From assembly GCA_947624265.1 (NCBI GenBank), contig CANQJQ010000005.1, positions 1 through 36,885 on the forward strand: a stretch of 36,885 bases of DNA, given 5' to 3'. This document shows, piece by piece, positions 11,258 through 16,573 of the stretch. Every line of letters starts with the position of its first letter. The first letter of the stretch is position 1. This stretch comes from Candidatus Gastranaerophilales bacterium. Its GTDB lineage: Bacteria > Cyanobacteriota > Vampirovibrionia > Gastranaerophilales > Gastranaerophilaceae. Below the pieces are notes generated by a model. The model was not told where the DNA came from. It made no database searches and worked only from the letters and a program-made list of their open reading frames with translations. The translations under genes were made by a program, and so were the position numbers.

Positions 11258-12571
11258 ATGAATATAAAACCGGTAACATCAAAAATTATATCCACTCTTG
11301 GAAATAAAGAATCGCTTGTCCCGATAATGATAAAGGACGGCGTAGACAGTGCAAGTCTAACTTATAAATCATATAAAGAAGGCGGAAGCATTGAAGGATT
11401 AGATAGGGCAATTGATGAATTTGGGACTCAGGCAATATGGATAGGCGGAATACCGTTTTATAAAAAATTAATTGATTTAACCATATACAAATTTGCAAAA
11501 ATTAATCCGCAAGTTGACCCAAGAATTTTAACAGATAAAGAATATTCAAAATGGGCGCTTGAAAACGCTTCAGGGTTAATGAACAACACTAAAAACCAAA
11601 GCGTAAAAGACGCAATACTAAAATGTCTTAAAGATGGCGGAAAAAAAACAAAAAATTTATATGGAAGCAAAGTTATAACAGCTACTGCACTAACCTTAGC
11701 AACATATTTTTTATTGACAAAAGCTAAACAAAATAACACAAAAACAAAAGTTCTTAAAGATATGAAAAATAAAACAAATGAGAAAAACATTGAGATATAC
11801 AAAAAGAAAAATAACATATTTAATGACATAGAAAATCATTCAATATCATTTAAAGGAACTTTTAATAAAGCTGCAGAAGCCGTCATGTTTAATCCAGTCC
11901 ATAATATGAAGCTTATTGATGCGGGAATAACAGGAGAAAGACTTGCCTGTTCAAGAAACAAAACGGAATTTACCGAACACGCAATAAAAGAAGGCGGCTT
12001 TCTGTTTTTTATATACGGATTTGGAAATTTAATCGAAAAAGGAATAAATAAAATTTCAGATAAACTATTAAATATGCCTATTGATTTATCAATTGATGTA
12101 TTAACTGATAATAGCTTTAAAAAAGCTTTGGAAGAAAATATAATTTTACAAAATGTATTTGAAATAAAACAATCTGGAAAAAGTTTAACGGATAAATTGA
12201 ATTTTCTTATAAATAATCCCGATAATATTGTTGTAAAAGCCGCAAAAAAATCAAAACTTATACACACAACTAAAACAAAAACAGGGCAATATGTAACGGA
12301 TACATCAAAATATATTGATTTAAAAGCATTGGATACATTAGCTGATAATCTTATGGAATTTGAAAAGAAATTTAAAAGTTCTAAAAAAAGCGCAAGTTCA
12401 TACTTAAAAAAGACCTGCGGACTTAAAGTTTTATCCGTATGTGCCAATATCGGTATATCATGTCTATTTTTGGGTTATATTATACCAAAATTAATATATA
12501 AATACAGGAAATTAAAAACAGGTACAACAAAATTTCATGTAGAAGAAGACATAAAAAATAATAAAAATTGA
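11258..12571 (+). CDS. Uncharacterised membrane protein, 437 residues
   Basis: I do not recognise a characterised family. The style resembles proteins found repeatedly in Gastranaerophilales genomes (motifs such as LDRAIDEFGTQAIWIGGIPF and DAGITGER), but that is recollection rather than a search. Hydrophobic segments lie at about 55-66, 137-154, 246-258 and 388-413. The last is followed by a basic stretch (KLIYKYRKLK) and so is a likely C-terminal anchor. Between them are Lys/Asn-rich soluble regions. There is no signal peptide and no catalytic motif. The ATG has an AAAAGGAAAAGG binding site. It lies between the 19-residue ORF and the radical SAM genes, all on the same strand. Confidence 0.8.
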   Translation: MNIKPVTSKIISTLGNKESLVPIMIKDGVDSASLTYKSYKEGGSIEGLDRAIDEFGTQAIWIGGIPFYKKLIDLTIYKFAKINPQVDPRILTDKEYSKWALENASGLMNNTKNQSVKDAILKCLKDGGKKTKNLYGSKVITATALTLATYFLLTKAKQNNTKTKVLKDMKNKTNEKNIEIYKKKNNIFNDIENHSISFKGTFNKAAEAVMFNPVHNMKLIDAGITGERLACSRNKTEFTEHAIKEGGFLFFIYGFGNLIEKGINKISDKLLNMPIDLSIDVLTDNSFKKALEENIILQNVFEIKQSGKSLTDKLNFLINNPDNIVVKAAKKSKLIHTTKTKTGQYVTDTSKYIDLKALDTLADNLMEFEKKFKSSKKSASSYLKKTCGLKVLSVCANIGISCLFLGYIIPKLIYKYRKLKTGTTKFHVEEDIKNNKN

Positions 12572-12595
12572 TTTTCCTTTTTATACTGTTATGCT
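12568..12595 (+). promoter_or_regulatory. Possible extended -10 promoter before the radical SAM genes
   Basis: TTGATT (12568-12573) and TGTTATGCT (extended -10, hexamer TATGCT at 12590-12595) have a 16-nt spacer. If real, the three radical SAM genes and the dehydrogenase can be transcribed separately from the 437-residue protein gene. Confidence 0.35.
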
Positions 12596-12621
12596 AAAAT
12601 TAAACTATAAGAGGGATAAAC

Positions 12622-13599
12622 GTGCGTTATAAGAGTTGTTATTGGATAGAATCGGGAATTAATTTTGATATAGATGCATATAAAGTATGCTGTCTTTACA
12701 GTGCAAAGGGCGGCGGTAACACCATAGTAAAAGATAATTATAAAGGAGAACCCGTAGACTGGGATAAATTCTTTGAATTTAAAAAAATGATGAAGGATAT
12801 GCATAAAAGAGGAGAAACATACCCAAAGTGTGAAGGCTGCATATTCTTAGAAGAACAAGATTGGCCGGACGACCATAGCAAAATAAGTATGATTAACCTT
12901 GATTATTGGACAAAATGCAATTCCAGATGTTCATACTGCCACACAATGCTTGATAAAGATAAATATAACAAATTTAAAAACTATAACTTTTTACCGATAT
13001 TAAAAGACATGATAAAGCGAGATATTTTAAGACCTAACGGACACGTTAGCTTCGGAGGCGGAGAAGTTACACTGTTAAAGGAATTTGATAAACTGCTTAA
13101 TATATTTATGGATTTTGGATTTCCTTTAACAAGAATTCATTCCTCCTGTATAAAGTATTCAAAAGCCGTAGAAAAGGGATTAAAAAACGGATGTGTTGAT
13201 TTAATTGTATCTGTTGACTCCGGCTCTAAGCAAATGCACGAAAAAGTAAAACAAGTTAAATCTTATGACAAAGTATGGAAAAATTTAAAAAGATACGCAT
13301 CTCATCAAAAAGATCCTTATGCAGTCAAAAGTAAATATATAGTTATTCCGGGAGTTAATGATTCAAAAGAAGAAATGGAACTTTGGCTTTTAAAATCAAA
13401 AGAAAACGGAATTAACTGCGTATTTCACGAAATTGAATCAAAATGGTTTTATGCACGAAGAGATAATGTTCCTTCTGAAATTATTGAACTATTTCTATGG
13501 GCAAAAAGTAAAGCTGAAGAATTAGGATTAAAATACGAATTATATGAAAGAGCGGAACATATGATGAGCTTTTATCACGAGAAAGAGGCAAAAATATAA
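12622..13599 (+). CDS. Radical SAM protein, tandem paralog 1 (GTG start)
   Basis: A radical SAM enzyme of 325 residues. The cluster-binding CxxxCxxC is C99, C103, C106 (CNSRCSYC), and the SAM-contact GGE-like motif is in SFGGGEVTLL. Before the core is an N-terminal domain with C6, C23/C24 and a CxxC at C70/C73, enough for one auxiliary Fe-S cluster. There is no C-terminal SPASM extension. The protein is clearly paralogous to the next two genes. The GTG start follows GAGGGA. Its stop shares a base with the next ATG. The reaction and substrate are unknown. Related enzymes modify peptides, lipids or sugars, and nothing in the sequence selects among these. Confidence 0.88.
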   Translation: MRYKSCYWIESGINFDIDAYKVCCLYSAKGGGNTIVKDNYKGEPVDWDKFFEFKKMMKDMHKRGETYPKCEGCIFLEEQDWPDDHSKISMINLDYWTKCNSRCSYCHTMLDKDKYNKFKNYNFLPILKDMIKRDILRPNGHVSFGGGEVTLLKEFDKLLNIFMDFGFPLTRIHSSCIKYSKAVEKGLKNGCVDLIVSVDSGSKQMHEKVKQVKSYDKVWKNLKRYASHQKDPYAVKSKYIVIPGVNDSKEEMELWLLKSKENGINCVFHEIESKWFYARRDNVPSEIIELFLWAKSKAEELGLKYELYERAEHMMSFYHEKEAKI

Positions 13600-14585
13600 T
13601 GCGCGAATATACAAGCTGTCATTGGATACAACACGGATTAAGTTTTGAAAACGATCATATAGAAATGTGCTGTTTATGCTGCCACAAAGGGGGAGGCAGG
13701 CTGTATATTAAAGAAAATTATAACGGCAAAGGACTTAAATGGGATGATATATTTAAGTTAAAAGAAAGATTTATTTCAGATAACTCAAACGGTATTATTG
13801 ATCCCAGATGTGAAGGGTGTTTTAACTTGGTCAATAAAGGTTGGGATGATGATGAAAAATATATAAACTATATTCACTTTAATCATTGGACACATTGCAA
13901 CAGTGACTGTATATACTGCTATACAAAGTGGGATAAAAAGGCATTTAACTCACGACCCCATTACAAAGTAATGCCGATATTAAAAGAATTATTTAAGAAA
14001 AAACTGTTTCGCCCCGGAGGCGAAGTAACATTTGCAGGCGGTGAGCCAACTATTCTTAATGAATTTGATGACATTATAAATTGTCTTTTAAAAAACGGGG
14101 TTGAAAGAATTACCGTACATTCTTCAGGGATTAAATACTCTAAAGCTATAGAAAAGGGTATAAAAGAAAAGAAGCTTTCTGTATGTTTGTCGGCAGACTG
14201 CGGTTCAAGAGATACTTTTATGGCGGTAAAAAGAGTTGATAAGTTTGATAAATTCTGGCAGAATGTCGAAAAATATGCAAAGGCGCAAGATGAAAATTCA
14301 GATAAACTTTTAGTTGAAACGAAATATATATTAATTCCCGGGGTAAATGACAACAAAGAGGAAATTGAAAAGTGGTTTAGTCTTAATATTGCCTGCGGAA
14401 TAAAATCAATAGTTATCGATATTGAAAATGATTATTGTAAAGAGTTAAGAGCTGAAAATAAAGAAAAACCTCAACATTTGGTTGAATTATGTAATTATAT
14501 AATAAAACGCGCAAAAGAACTGAATTTTAATCTCGTGGATTACAATAATTTCAGATATTTAACAACGGAATTCAATTTATTATAA
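13599..14585 (+). CDS. Radical SAM protein, tandem paralog 2
   Basis: Second of three paralogs, 328 residues, starting in a TAATG overlap with paralog 1. CxxxCxxC is C100, C104, C107 (CNSDCIYC), and the glycine motif is FAGGEPTIL, the more typical form. N-terminal cysteines C7, C24/C25, C71 and C74 match the sister proteins in spacing, with two extra cysteines (C27, C28) directly after. The C-terminal half is the most divergent of the three (VKRVDKFDKFWQNV against VKQVxSYDKVWKNL). No SPASM domain follows. The divergence suggests a different substrate position or partner. Function is not recognised. Confidence 0.88.
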   Translation: MREYTSCHWIQHGLSFENDHIEMCCLCCHKGGGRLYIKENYNGKGLKWDDIFKLKERFISDNSNGIIDPRCEGCFNLVNKGWDDDEKYINYIHFNHWTHCNSDCIYCYTKWDKKAFNSRPHYKVMPILKELFKKKLFRPGGEVTFAGGEPTILNEFDDIINCLLKNGVERITVHSSGIKYSKAIEKGIKEKKLSVCLSADCGSRDTFMAVKRVDKFDKFWQNVEKYAKAQDENSDKLLVETKYILIPGVNDNKEEIEKWFSLNIACGIKSIVIDIENDYCKELRAENKEKPQHLVELCNYIIKRAKELNFNLVDYNNFRYLTTEFNLL

Positions 14586-14595
14586 GGGGTAAGTG

Positions 14596-15591
14596 GTGGA
14601 AGGATTTGAAAGCTGCAGTTATATAGAGCACGGAATGGTTCTTGACCATTGCAACAGAATTCGTTCATGCAATAATTTTAACCCCAGGTATGGCGGAAGA
14701 CCGATAATATACGAAAATTATCACGGCGAAAAAATAAATTGGAAAGAATTTTTTGATATTAAAAGAAAAGAACGCCAAAAATACAGAGAAAATTCCTGTC
14801 CTGATTTGTGCAAAGATTGCGTAAATACTTCATTTAAAAATTGGGATGATGAGGATTATATAGATTATTTGCTTTTAACCCCTTGGGTGCCTTGCAATTC
14901 AAACTGTATATACTGCCAAGCGCCAAGAGATAAAGAAGTTTTAGATAATACAAAAGTATATAAAGTTTTGCCTCTTGTAAAAGATATGATTAAGAATAAC
15001 ATTCTAAAAAAAGACGGCACAATTGATTTCGCAGGCGGAGAACCCACTATTTACAGAGAATTTGAAGCTCTTCTAAAAGAGTTTATAAATAACGATTTTA
15101 CTAAAATTATAATTCATACAAATGCAATCAAAAAGAGTCCCGCAATTATAAAAGGACTTAAAAAAGGAGTAATCAGGGTACTTGTTTCAATAGATGCGGG
15201 TTCAAAAGAAATACACAAAAAAGTAAAACAAGTTAATTCTTATGATAAAGTTTGGAAGAACTTAGAAGAATATGCAAAAATTCAACCTGAAGGCGCTGAC
15301 TGGGTTAAAGCTAAATATATTATAGTTCCCAAGCTTAACGATTCAGAGGAAGAAATTAATCTTTGGCTTGAAAAATGTAAATCAATAAATATAAAAAGCG
15401 TCGTATTAAATTTGGATTTTAATTGGATTATGCAAAATGTTGATAACGATTTAATGCCAATATATAATCTAATGAAATATACTCAAAACAGAGCATGGGA
15501 GCTTGGTATAAATTGCGAGCTTTACGGACAAATTTTTCAAGTAAAATGTGAAGTAGAAAAAACAAGAGAAGAAAATATAGCCGGATTCTAA
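14596..15591 (+). CDS. Radical SAM protein, tandem paralog 3 (GTG start)
   Basis: Third paralog, 331 residues from the chosen start. Two GTG codons lie in tandem (14593 and 14596). The second gives better spacing to AAGGGG and places the first cysteine at residue 7, as in paralog 2. C100, C104, C107 (CNSNCIYC) bind the SAM cluster, and FAGGEPTIY is the glycine motif. N-terminal C7, C25, C72 and C75 match the sisters. The CC pair of the sisters is replaced by a single C25, which points to the second cysteine as the real ligand. Part of its C-terminal half is nearly identical at DNA level to paralog 1. The dehydrogenase gene follows after 1 nt. Confidence 0.87.
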   Translation: MEGFESCSYIEHGMVLDHCNRIRSCNNFNPRYGGRPIIYENYHGEKINWKEFFDIKRKERQKYRENSCPDLCKDCVNTSFKNWDDEDYIDYLLLTPWVPCNSNCIYCQAPRDKEVLDNTKVYKVLPLVKDMIKNNILKKDGTIDFAGGEPTIYREFEALLKEFINNDFTKIIIHTNAIKKSPAIIKGLKKGVIRVLVSIDAGSKEIHKKVKQVNSYDKVWKNLEEYAKIQPEGADWVKAKYIIVPKLNDSEEEINLWLEKCKSINIKSVVLNLDFNWIMQNVDNDLMPIYNLMKYTQNRAWELGINCELYGQIFQVKCEVEKTREENIAGF

Positions 15592-15592
15592 T

Positions 15593-16573
15593 ATGAAAAT
15601 AACAATTTATGAAAAAAGACCATACGAAAATAATATAATACAAGAATATAAAAATTTAAAAGATATTGAATTTGTTACAACAGAGGAAATACTTGATAAT
15701 AATACAATTGACTTGTGTAAAGGTTCAGACGGCATAACCATTCTGGGATACAGTTGTTTAGATACGAATTTATTAGATAAAATAAAAGAAAACGGAGTCA
15801 AATATATTTCAACAAGAACGATTGGTTTTAATCACATAGATATTGAATATGCAAAGAAAATTGGATTAAAAGTCAGTAATGTAACTTATGCTCCAAACGG
15901 TGTTGCAGACTTTACCATAATGTTAATGCTTATAAGCATCAGGAAATATAAACCTGCAATGTGGCGGCAAAATGTTAATGATTACACTCTTAACGGATTA
16001 ATGGGCAGGGAAATGCGCAATTTAACTGTTGGTGTAATCGGTACGGGCAGGATAGGCGCAACTGTAATAAAAAACTTATCAGGATTCGGATGCAAAATTC
16101 TAGCATTTGATAAGTATAAAAATCCGGCTGTTGAAAATTATGCAAAATATACAAGTTTTGATGAATTGCTTAATAATAGTGATATTATAACAATTCATGT
16201 GCCTCTAACTCAAGAAAACAGGGGAATTATTAATAAAAATAATATTTCCAAGATGAAAACAGGCGTAGTTATAATAAATACGGCAAGAAGTGAACTGGCC
16301 AACATCCAAGATTTAATTGAAGGAATAGAAACAGAAAAAATAGGTGCACTTGCGCTTGATGTCTTTGAAAATGAAGATGAAATATATCATCATTATTTAT
16401 CTACAGATATTATTAAGAACAAAGATATGGCTTATTTAAGACAATTTCCGAATGTGGTTTTAACTCAACACATGGCTTTTTTTACAGACGGAGCAACGGA
16501 AGAAATGATAAGAAACTCCATTGAAAGTTTAATAAGCTTCAAACAAACAGATACATGTAAAAATGAATTATGA
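15593..16573 (+). CDS. VanH-like D-2-hydroxyacid (D-lactate) dehydrogenase
   Basis: NAD-dependent dehydrogenase that interconverts a 2-oxo acid and a D-2-hydroxy acid, probably pyruvate and D-lactate. It has 326 residues. The substrate-domain segment VKYISTRTIGFNHID and the nucleotide motif GTGRIG (150-155) closely resemble VanH and fermentative D-lactate dehydrogenases. The catalytic triad can be placed at R232, E261 and H293. The usual Gly after the catalytic Arg (NTARG) is Ser here (NTARS). The gene follows the third radical SAM gene after 1 nt with only a weak binding site, so it is probably translationally coupled. No VanA-type ligase or VanX is seen. A role tied to the radical SAM genes is inference. 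Confidence 0.88.
   Translation: MKITIYEKRPYENNIIQEYKNLKDIEFVTTEEILDNNTIDLCKGSDGITILGYSCLDTNLLDKIKENGVKYISTRTIGFNHIDIEYAKKIGLKVSNVTYAPNGVADFTIMLMLISIRKYKPAMWRQNVNDYTLNGLMGREMRNLTVGVIGTGRIGATVIKNLSGFGCKILAFDKYKNPAVENYAKYTSFDELLNNSDIITIHVPLTQENRGIINKNNISKMKTGVVIINTARSELANIQDLIEGIETEKIGALALDVFENEDEIYHHYLSTDIIKNKDMAYLRQFPNVVLTQHMAFFTDGATEEMIRNSIESLISFKQTDTCKNEL

Follow-up and report, generated by a model that had tools for sequence, protein, structure and literature searches.

Three paralogous radical SAM genes that lie back to back and are followed by a dehydrogenase gene raise the question of whether they form a working unit and on what their products act. They are found in a 36,885-nucleotide stretch of DNA (the window) from a Gastranaerophilales genome, i.e., from the non-photosynthetic Cyanobacteriota of the herbivore gut. 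The trio forms a genuine unit: the genes make up a small operon, and their products are radical SAM enzymes from one undescribed family, referred to here as family A. The reading favored below, with a probability of roughly one half, is that family A comprises carbohydrate-tailoring, twitch-like enzymes of surface-glycan biosynthesis and that the trio catalyzes consecutive steps.

Organization of the Locus

RS1 (12622–13599, + strand; 325 aa, GTG start), RS2 (13599–14585, +; 328 aa, ATG start), and RS3 (14593–15591, +; 332 aa) each encode a radical SAM enzyme with an N-terminal four-cysteine domain. The reading frames are intact and spaced as claimed in the original prediction: RS1 and RS2 overlap by one base, RS2 and RS3 are 7 nt apart, and the dehydrogenase gene (15593–16573, +; 326 aa) follows RS3 after 1 nt. 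All three proteins match the Pfam Radical_SAM model (PF04055; E-values of 6e-15, 7e-16, and 1e-20 for RS1, RS2, and RS3, respectively) with 56–75 bits against a cut-off of 29.5, and harbor the CX3CX2C and GGE motifs as well as the partial TIM barrel of the superfamily. In RS1, the cysteine motif reads CNSRCSYC and is accompanied by a GGGE motif.

The trio is preceded by an extended −10 promoter element, TATGCTAAAAT (12590–12600, +), conserved across homologous loci, and by the RS1 ribosome-binding site AGAGGG (12610–12615, +), of which a purine-rich AGAGGG-type version occurs in nearly all loci. The motif TATGNTA(A/G)AAT lies 20–26 nt 5′ of the RS1 start in 24 of 31 homologous loci, with the remaining 7 carrying TGNTAAAAT. 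The element is also found where the gene that precedes it in the window, encoding a 437-aa membrane protein, is missing.

Conservation and Divergence of the Trio

The order RS1-RS2-RS3 is kept in 32 of 33 homologous loci, and relocated copies (L053 and L056) still hold all three genes together. The genes are under strong constraint, with housekeeping-like dN/dS values of about 0.06 (0.060, 0.054, and 0.062 for RS1, RS2, and RS3, respectively). A quick tree, as opposed to a careful search, does not place the three in one clade; each is nearer to copies elsewhere, and RS2 is the sister group of proteins in which a radical SAM enzyme is fused to a MATE exporter (support of 97). The tree rules out a recent tandem triplication, and the paralogs are old. 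The divergence noted originally is borne out, the locus being a co-directional, promoter-headed, conserved operon of diverged paralogs.

The same tree, together with the scattered and diverse nature of the family, can be read to mean that the trio is a historical accident in which each enzyme has its own substrate and the family has no common substrate class. In one locus (L059), a GT2 glycosyltransferase gene takes the place of RS3 directly after RS2, which fits this explanation. It is nevertheless improbable given the order kept even in relocated copies and the one conserved promoter. Because the operon of diverged paralogs is conserved and promoter-headed, and because none of the profiles of characterized families is matched above its cut-off by the trio proteins, successive reactions on one substrate, among those originally proposed, are plausible, with the shared substrate itself presumed. 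Homologs that are single, scattered, and surrounded by unrelated genes had been named as the pattern that would speak against a system; this describes most other copies of the family but not the trio.

Neighboring Genes

The fourth gene falls in the D-2-hydroxyacid dehydrogenase (D-lactate-dehydrogenase/VanH) superfamily and is full-length (2-Hacid_dh_C, 161 bits, 1.7e-47). Its description as VanH-like holds at the superfamily level but not at the level of VanH: it reaches 305 bits against the vanH model, for which the cut-off is 540, lies below every VanH cut-off, and is flanked by RS3 and a gene read from sequence as dnaE rather than by van genes. Its best solved relatives are D-lactate dehydrogenases. 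In a four-gene pathway, the enzyme would reduce a 2-oxo acid, and the resulting D-2-hydroxy acid would be added to the product as a decoration. D-lactyl groups occur in bacterial glycans, and the spacing to RS3 is 0–1 nt in 21 of the 23 loci that have both (a 20-nt overlap is found in the other two). However, the trio is not followed by the dehydrogenase gene in 9 of its 32 loci, and in genome G019 the gene occurs without the trio beside thiC, a yccA-like gene, and eno (names read from sequence). These loci rule it out as an obligate partner and make its membership in the pathway very unlikely. The gene is probably a facultative rider on the operon that serves ordinary D-lactate metabolism.

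Two upstream features had also been brought into the proposed system. The gene for the 437-aa membrane protein (11258–12571, +; dN/dS of 0.22) sits between uL9 and uvrD (L099) in genome G008, which has no family-A enzyme, and is located elsewhere in G022, while it is missing upstream of the trio in L036, L042, and L057. It is thereby ruled out as an obligate partner and is a neighbor outside the unit. The 19-residue ORF is neither a gene nor conserved. The nearest candidates are a 20-codon ORF (12439–12501) that lies out of frame inside the membrane protein gene and a 13-codon ORF at 12591 that overlies the promoter and the ribosome-binding site.

N-Terminal Domain and Relation to Known Radical SAM Enzymes

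Family A is defined as the radical SAM family of the trio with four invariant N-terminal cysteines. Among the 196 aligned members, C7, C24, and C74 are present in all and C71 in 195, while C100, C104, C107, and G148 are found in all 196. In RS2, the domain with C7, C24, C71, and C74 (13617–13820, +) probably holds one auxiliary [4Fe-4S] cluster in a twitch-like manner, as judged from a cysteine set that is complete at the level of sequence. The domain is N-terminal, whereas SPASM and twitch domains are C-terminal. The Pfam SPASM model (PF13186) does not match family A; the one match in 42 rows has the same E-value as the family-B row, family B being a second family of radical SAM enzymes with an N-terminal SPASM domain. 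A profile alignment of the N-terminal regions of the two families places their cysteines in register, although the match is weak (P = 0.014). Since neither a SPASM nor a PDB match was obtained, the twitch-like assignment rests on the cysteine pattern and this alignment.

The AlphaFold2 model of RS2 has a mean pLDDT of 88.9, and the N-terminal domain modeled alone has a pLDDT of 82. For the latter, Foldseek returned no fold match in the PDB, and none was seen at Z = 2 among 11 re-aligned chains; the missing match is no proof of a new fold.

In BtrN, a twitch enzyme, a four-cysteine auxiliary cluster is present, and the substrate that is oxidized is an aminocyclitol (PMC9012708). Family A resembles BtrN and MoaA in combining a CX3CX2C core with one short cysteine-bearing extra domain for a single auxiliary cluster, but that domain is C-terminal in BtrN and MoaA, and there is no match at the equivalog level. 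The N_Twi_rSAM model ("twitch domain-containing radical SAM protein", NF033640) is related in that the N-terminal 60 residues of family B align to its start and the RS3 core matches it. All scores are far under its cut-off of 170 bits: the best in 42 rows is a family-B protein with 54 bits (E = 1.1e-14), and family A is matched only through the core of RS3 (27 bits).

Sub-threshold profile matches are most commonly to MoaA and viperin, which, together with an arsenal-like variability in copy number, could point to nucleotide or cofactor enzymes, e.g., makers of antiviral nucleotides in an expanded defense arsenal. These matches, all partial and confined to the core, amount to about 24–62 bits where the NCBIfam cut-offs are 180–325: 24–46 bits against 231–325 for the MoaA equivalogs, 37–50 bits against 180 for the viperin pVip model (NF038283), and a best value per protein of 38–62 bits for the PADLOC pVip models. 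Viperin does not have the four-cysteine N-terminal domain, nucleotide kinase genes were not noticed among the neighbors, and the dN/dS of 0.06 does not resemble an arms race. A tblastn search for RS3 returned no phage or plasmid homologs, and a phage or plasmid origin was rejected on this ground. A nucleotide or cofactor role, antiviral or otherwise, is accordingly most doubtful.

The core fold is also that of the nucleotide-sugar enzymes DesII (Z = 14.1) and BlsE (Z = 13.8, rank 1 in Foldseek), which match about as well as most other radical SAM enzymes. Identity is 13–18%, and they differ in having other accessory domains and in belonging to antibiotic pathways. The peptide-modifying SuiB and SkfB, as well as PFL-AE, give equal or slightly better values (Z of 15 versus 14).

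That SuiB and SkfB have the top Z-scores and that many characterized SPASM/twitch enzymes act on peptides suggest another role, in which the family matures peptides or proteins, the targets of cross-linking, epimerization, or thioether modification being ribosomal peptides or else abundant proteins with genes in other parts of the genome. Many copies without common neighbors could act in trans, and prepilin-like genes adjoin radical SAM genes in three contexts. Against this, no conserved or recurrent small ORF lies beside the family genes, where gaps are short. The 13 candidates found in gaps of at least 90 nt share no similarity between radical SAM groups, and relatives outside the genus are linked to glycans. 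A precursor encoded by an adjacent small ORF is thus ruled out, one with a more distant gene may exist, and peptide maturation in general is rather unlikely.

Expansion within One Genus

Family A is present in 11–42 copies per genome within the genus, with the exception of three genomes (G008, G019, and G266) that have none. Family B has expanded alongside it, such that the two together account for up to about 48 genes per 2 Mb genome. PF04055 matches number from 42 to at least 70 per genome in the genus versus 17–46 in the rest of the order. No named subfamily covers the expanded enzymes, and no description of the expansion was found in the open-access literature, to which the search was confined, subscription papers being outside its scope.

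Apart from some arrays and fusions to MATE exporters, most family-A genes of the genus stand alone among housekeeping genes, so that neighborhood is weakly informative here. A genus-restricted, SGNH-like "GCSxxxG" membrane family recurs beside radical SAM genes. It is ruled out as an obligate partner, as copy numbers do not correlate: G008 has three such genes and no family-A enzyme, and G002 has none alongside 36 family-A copies. An SF[K/S/T][G/A] motif was considered as a substrate tag and rejected because visual inspection also showed an NFKG variant in a G008 protein, although that genome has no such radical SAM enzyme.

Glycan Context of the Relatives

Outside the genus, in sister genera, relatives with the four-cysteine domain are nearly all single-copy, and 8 of 11 loci are linked to glycan genes by fusion or neighborhood, the other three (L108, L109, and L120) having no such context. 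In L110, the enzyme is fused to a GT2 glycosyltransferase. In L107, L115, and L116, it is fused to a hexapeptide O-acyltransferase and adjoins a PGA_cap gene (calls read from sequence for the last two). The other linked loci adjoin genes for GT2, polysaccharide pyruvyl transferase, NeuB, UDP-galactopyranose mutase, or Uxs/Ugd (the last names, in L114, also read from sequence). Since the nearest relatives beyond the genus are thus surrounded by genes for surface sugars, remodeling of such sugars is the probable task of the enzymes. A comparable context exists in the Campylobacter jejuni HS:19 capsule cluster, in which a radical SAM metalloprotein gene lies beside a putative glycosyltransferase gene (PMC8743553). 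The likeness is one of gene context, and no expansion is reported there.

Only some family-A genes of the genus itself are accompanied by GT2, MATE, or nucleotide-sugar genes. The GT2 gene that stands in for RS3 in L059 is one such case and favors a glycan role. Four MATE fusions have a radical SAM part that is sister to RS2, a MATE gene adjoins a paralog in the same genome as the trio (L065), and genes for GDP-mannose dehydratase, DegT aminotransferase, GT2-like, and PIG-L proteins lie in or beside radical SAM arrays. G008 and G019, which have neither family, encode 5 and 6 GT2 genes, respectively, compared to 15–37 in the other 21 genomes; the chance that both would rank lowest is 1/253. Among the family-positive genomes, copy number of family A and number of GT2 genes are not correlated (rho = −0.13). 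Taken together, a surface-glycan role of family A is moderately supported.

Proposed Function

For the carbohydrate-tailoring role favored here, we infer a sugar substrate and an occupied auxiliary cluster. The standard [4Fe-4S]/SAM core would cleave SAM to the 5′-deoxyadenosyl radical, which would abstract a hydrogen from a nucleotide sugar, a lipid-linked sugar, or a glycan. The four-cysteine cluster could then accept the substrate electron, as proposed for BtrN, and the reaction would presumably yield an oxidized, epimerized, or deoxygenated sugar. A single substrate would pass through the enzymes of the trio in consecutive steps, and the scattered single copies would act on other sugars. 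More tentatively, a single enzyme of a polysaccharide cluster may have given rise to dozens of carbohydrate-tailoring enzymes that diversify surface glycans combinatorially, with chemistry unseen in known glycan pathways.

An expansion of radical SAM enzymes of such size, confined to one genus, is unusual. The trio, conserved and strongly constrained, is a good starting point for biochemistry. If surface sugars are indeed the substrates, the family would represent a large untapped set of C–H-functionalizing carbohydrate enzymes and would show in what these uncultured gut bacteria invest.

Gene organization of the trio

RS1 (12622–13599), RS2 (13599–14585), and RS3 (14593–15591) are radical SAM (rSAM) genes followed by one D-2-hydroxyacid dehydrogenase gene (15593–16573), in exactly the arrangement of the original prediction. 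They lie on the forward strand of contig 5 of a 1.65 Mb draft genome (85% complete), whose closest named relatives are Gastranaerophilales MAGs, many of them labelled as rabbit ("Lapin") material and others as coming from rumen, goat, or deer. Each rSAM protein harbors CX3CX2C and GGE/GGGE motifs, and all three share an N-terminal region of ~90 residues with four invariant cysteines, characteristic of a family termed here family A. None of the NCBIfam equivalogs comes near its cut-off with RS1–3.

The trio is one unit. The three genes keep one fixed order across 33 orthologous loci (L062 and L064 excluded; L033 and L039 interrupted by contig ends), the sole exception being L059, in which RS3 is missing and a GT2-type gene (PF00535 match, G016:C82) lies directly behind RS2. 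RS1 and RS2 mostly overlap by one base (spacing −1), and the RS2–RS3 gap is short; the trio is complete in L056 and L053 though the chromosomal surroundings differ. Median dN/dS values of 0.060, 0.054, and 0.062 for RS1, RS2, and RS3 reflect purifying selection; ribosomal protein uL9 stands at 0.088 and the 437-residue membrane protein encoded upstream (11258–12571) at 0.218. In 24 of 31 loci, an extended −10 element, TATGNTA(A/G)AAT, precedes the RS1 start by 20–26 nt; the other seven carry TGNTAAAAT instead. Because this element is retained where the upstream gene is a different one, the operon has its own promoter.

The neighbors fall outside the unit. The dehydrogenase follows RS3 in 23 of the 33 loci (with a gap of 0–1 nt in 21), is missing in nine, and is not judgeable in L053. 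Its 74% identical ortholog occurs in G019, a genus genome devoid of family A, flanked by genes that we take from their sequences to be thiC-like and yccA-like/eno. The dehydrogenase is thus not upheld as a pathway partner, and its "VanH-like" label is valid for the D-LDH/VanH superfamily but not for VanH itself, as it scores under every VanH cut-off. Nor is the 437-residue protein part of the unit, since G008, with zero family-A genes, has it between uL9 and uvrD; the 19-residue ORF upstream matches nothing conserved. Prepilin-like genes (FTLSEVLITLVIIGVIS) replace the 437-residue protein gene directly upstream of the trio in L042 (6277–6924) and L057 (6276–6923), and another (L075:4766–5365) adjoins a different family-A member.

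Expansion of family A

The genome of the window encodes 21 family-A members, with a contig 1 copy (47% identical) being nearest to RS2. Among 23 genus genomes compared, 21 carry 11–42 members (median 27) and G008 and G019 carry none; a profile search of a further genus member, G266, gave no match. Of 15 genomes from the order's other families, a single one matched. PF04055 matches number from 42 to at least 70 per genome in family-A-positive genus members, 20 in G008, 18 in G019, and 17–46 in the rest of the order. Among the 196 members collected from all loci, C7, C24, C74, C100, C104, C107, Y106, G148, K211, and K242 (RS2 numbering) never vary, and C71 is lacking in a single member; the copies are therefore intact enzymes. 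The predicted divergence of the paralogs is borne out by their identity to RS2 (RS1 40%, RS3 36%) and by a quick tree in which RS1–3 form no single group: RS2 is sister to four rSAM–MATE fusion proteins (support 97), RS3 groups with array copies (98), and RS1 lies near a contig-24 copy (92).

These exporter fusions of ~760 residues (L078:5196–7484, L079:7507–9795, L080:6103–8379, and L081:7540–9819), encoded in four genomes with the MatE domain confirmed in one, are apparently undescribed so far. L065, a family-A paralog in the genome of the window, adjoins a MatE gene.

Long runs of family-A genes in both orientations occur in G006 (C4, 46–79 kb), G003 (C23), and G014 (C9 and C11). Such hot spots are interspersed with genes of family B, proteins of 330–370 residues with an N-terminal Pfam SPASM domain and an rSAM core. 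Family B (0–12 copies per genome) is restricted to the genus except for one match, is absent from G008 and G019, and correlates in copy number with family A in family-A-positive genomes (rho 0.66, P 0.001).

In hot spots L085–L089, the runs also contain nucleotide-sugar genes and genes for small TPR and SGNH-like membrane proteins, and orthologs reappear in altered order from genome to genome. The TPR proteins (~90–100 residues) recur beside family-A genes in separate arrays (L086:4106–4402, L086:8705–8974, L095:7295–7603). Nearly every genus member carries 3–22 copies of the membrane-anchored SGNH-like family, which has a GCSxxxG motif and no Pfam match; the rest of the order has none. The genes of this family, often tandem, recur beside rSAM genes including the trio (L050:10970–11851, L051, L058, L063:10119–11877, L085:9425–10342, L086:10141–12457, L092:2950–3873). 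In L072, an apparent tRNA gene lies upstream of 4854 with a family-A gene immediately behind it, an arrangement typical of sites where islands insert.

Close to their N-termini, many otherwise unrelated proteins bear a short [ISPN][ST]F[KST][GA]-like motif (e.g., L086:18185–18859, L087:429–1523, L072:1895–4732, L095:3166–3966), possibly a sorting or processing signal. It occurs within the first 70 residues of 14/260 non-redundant proteins versus a shuffle mean of 2.7 (maximum 7, 200 shuffles). The 437-residue protein has ISFKG further in, and inspection by eye showed an NFKG variant in a protein of G008, a genome that lacks both rSAM families.

N-terminal domain and fold

No family-A member matches the SPASM model, and the isolated N-terminal domain model has no match in the PDB. 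Because some family-B proteins align almost full-length to the family-A profile (at low score) and the N-terminal profile alignment of the two families pairs their first cysteines, the domain is best read from sequence as a probable diverged SPASM/twitch relative. rSAM enzymes with auxiliary-cluster domains are a kind already known. In the open literature searched, no description was found of the N-terminal four-cysteine family, its genus-level expansion, its MATE, GT2, and acyltransferase fusions, or the conserved trio.

The RS2 model (input of 69 orthologs plus paralogs; pLDDT 88.9, pTM 0.88) has a core (~88–328) matching SuiB and SkfB (Z 15.1), PFL-AE (15.0), Mmp10 (14.7), DesII (14.1), BlsE (13.8), and MoaA and viperin (~12.8). 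These matches to the predicted structure confirm the rSAM fold and do not discriminate between substrate classes. Peptide or protein maturation, nucleotide chemistry, and unrelated substrates for the individual rSAMs are less probable rivals to a sugar substrate.

Probable link to surface glycans

Since most genus copies sit among housekeeping genes, the informative context lies outside the genus. A profile search of 292 phylum genomes yielded relatives including the four-cysteine region in ten non-genus genomes, and one more was found afterwards. In L110, a GT2 domain is fused in front of one relative and a second relative comes just after a GT2 gene; their cluster also encodes NeuB, polysaccharide pyruvyl transferase, UDP-galactopyranose mutase, and an epimerase, and those of L111, L112, and L113 are comparable. 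L107, L115, and L116 each combine the relative with a hexapeptide acyltransferase in one fusion protein (the best models, of the WbbJ/WcaF type, score sub-threshold) with a PGA_cap gene adjoining, and in L114 it follows what, judging by sequence, are presumably nucleotide-sugar genes. Glycan context is absent at L108, L109, and L120 among these 11 loci.

G008, G019, and G266 belong to the same genus and all lack family A; the first two are far poorer in GT2 matches (5 and 6, versus 15–37 across the 21 family-A-positive genomes of the genus), a pattern suggesting that an entire surface-glycan programme has been lost. Among family-A-positive genomes, GT2 and family-A numbers do not correlate. 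An established precedent is the twitch enzyme BtrN, which has four Cys ligands and acts on an aminocyclitol (PMC9012708), and a capsule cluster with an rSAM gene, its role there not known, has been reported (PMC8743553).

Proposed mechanism

The analysis shows that the rSAM core is intact and accompanied by four further invariant cysteines, and that the operon is promoter-headed and under purifying selection. The N-terminal cysteines would hold an auxiliary [4Fe-4S] cluster; the 5′-deoxyadenosyl radical would abstract hydrogen from a sugar, with the auxiliary cluster taking up the electron. RS1–3 may work successively on one substrate, and the MATE-fused sister of RS2 would couple such a product to export.
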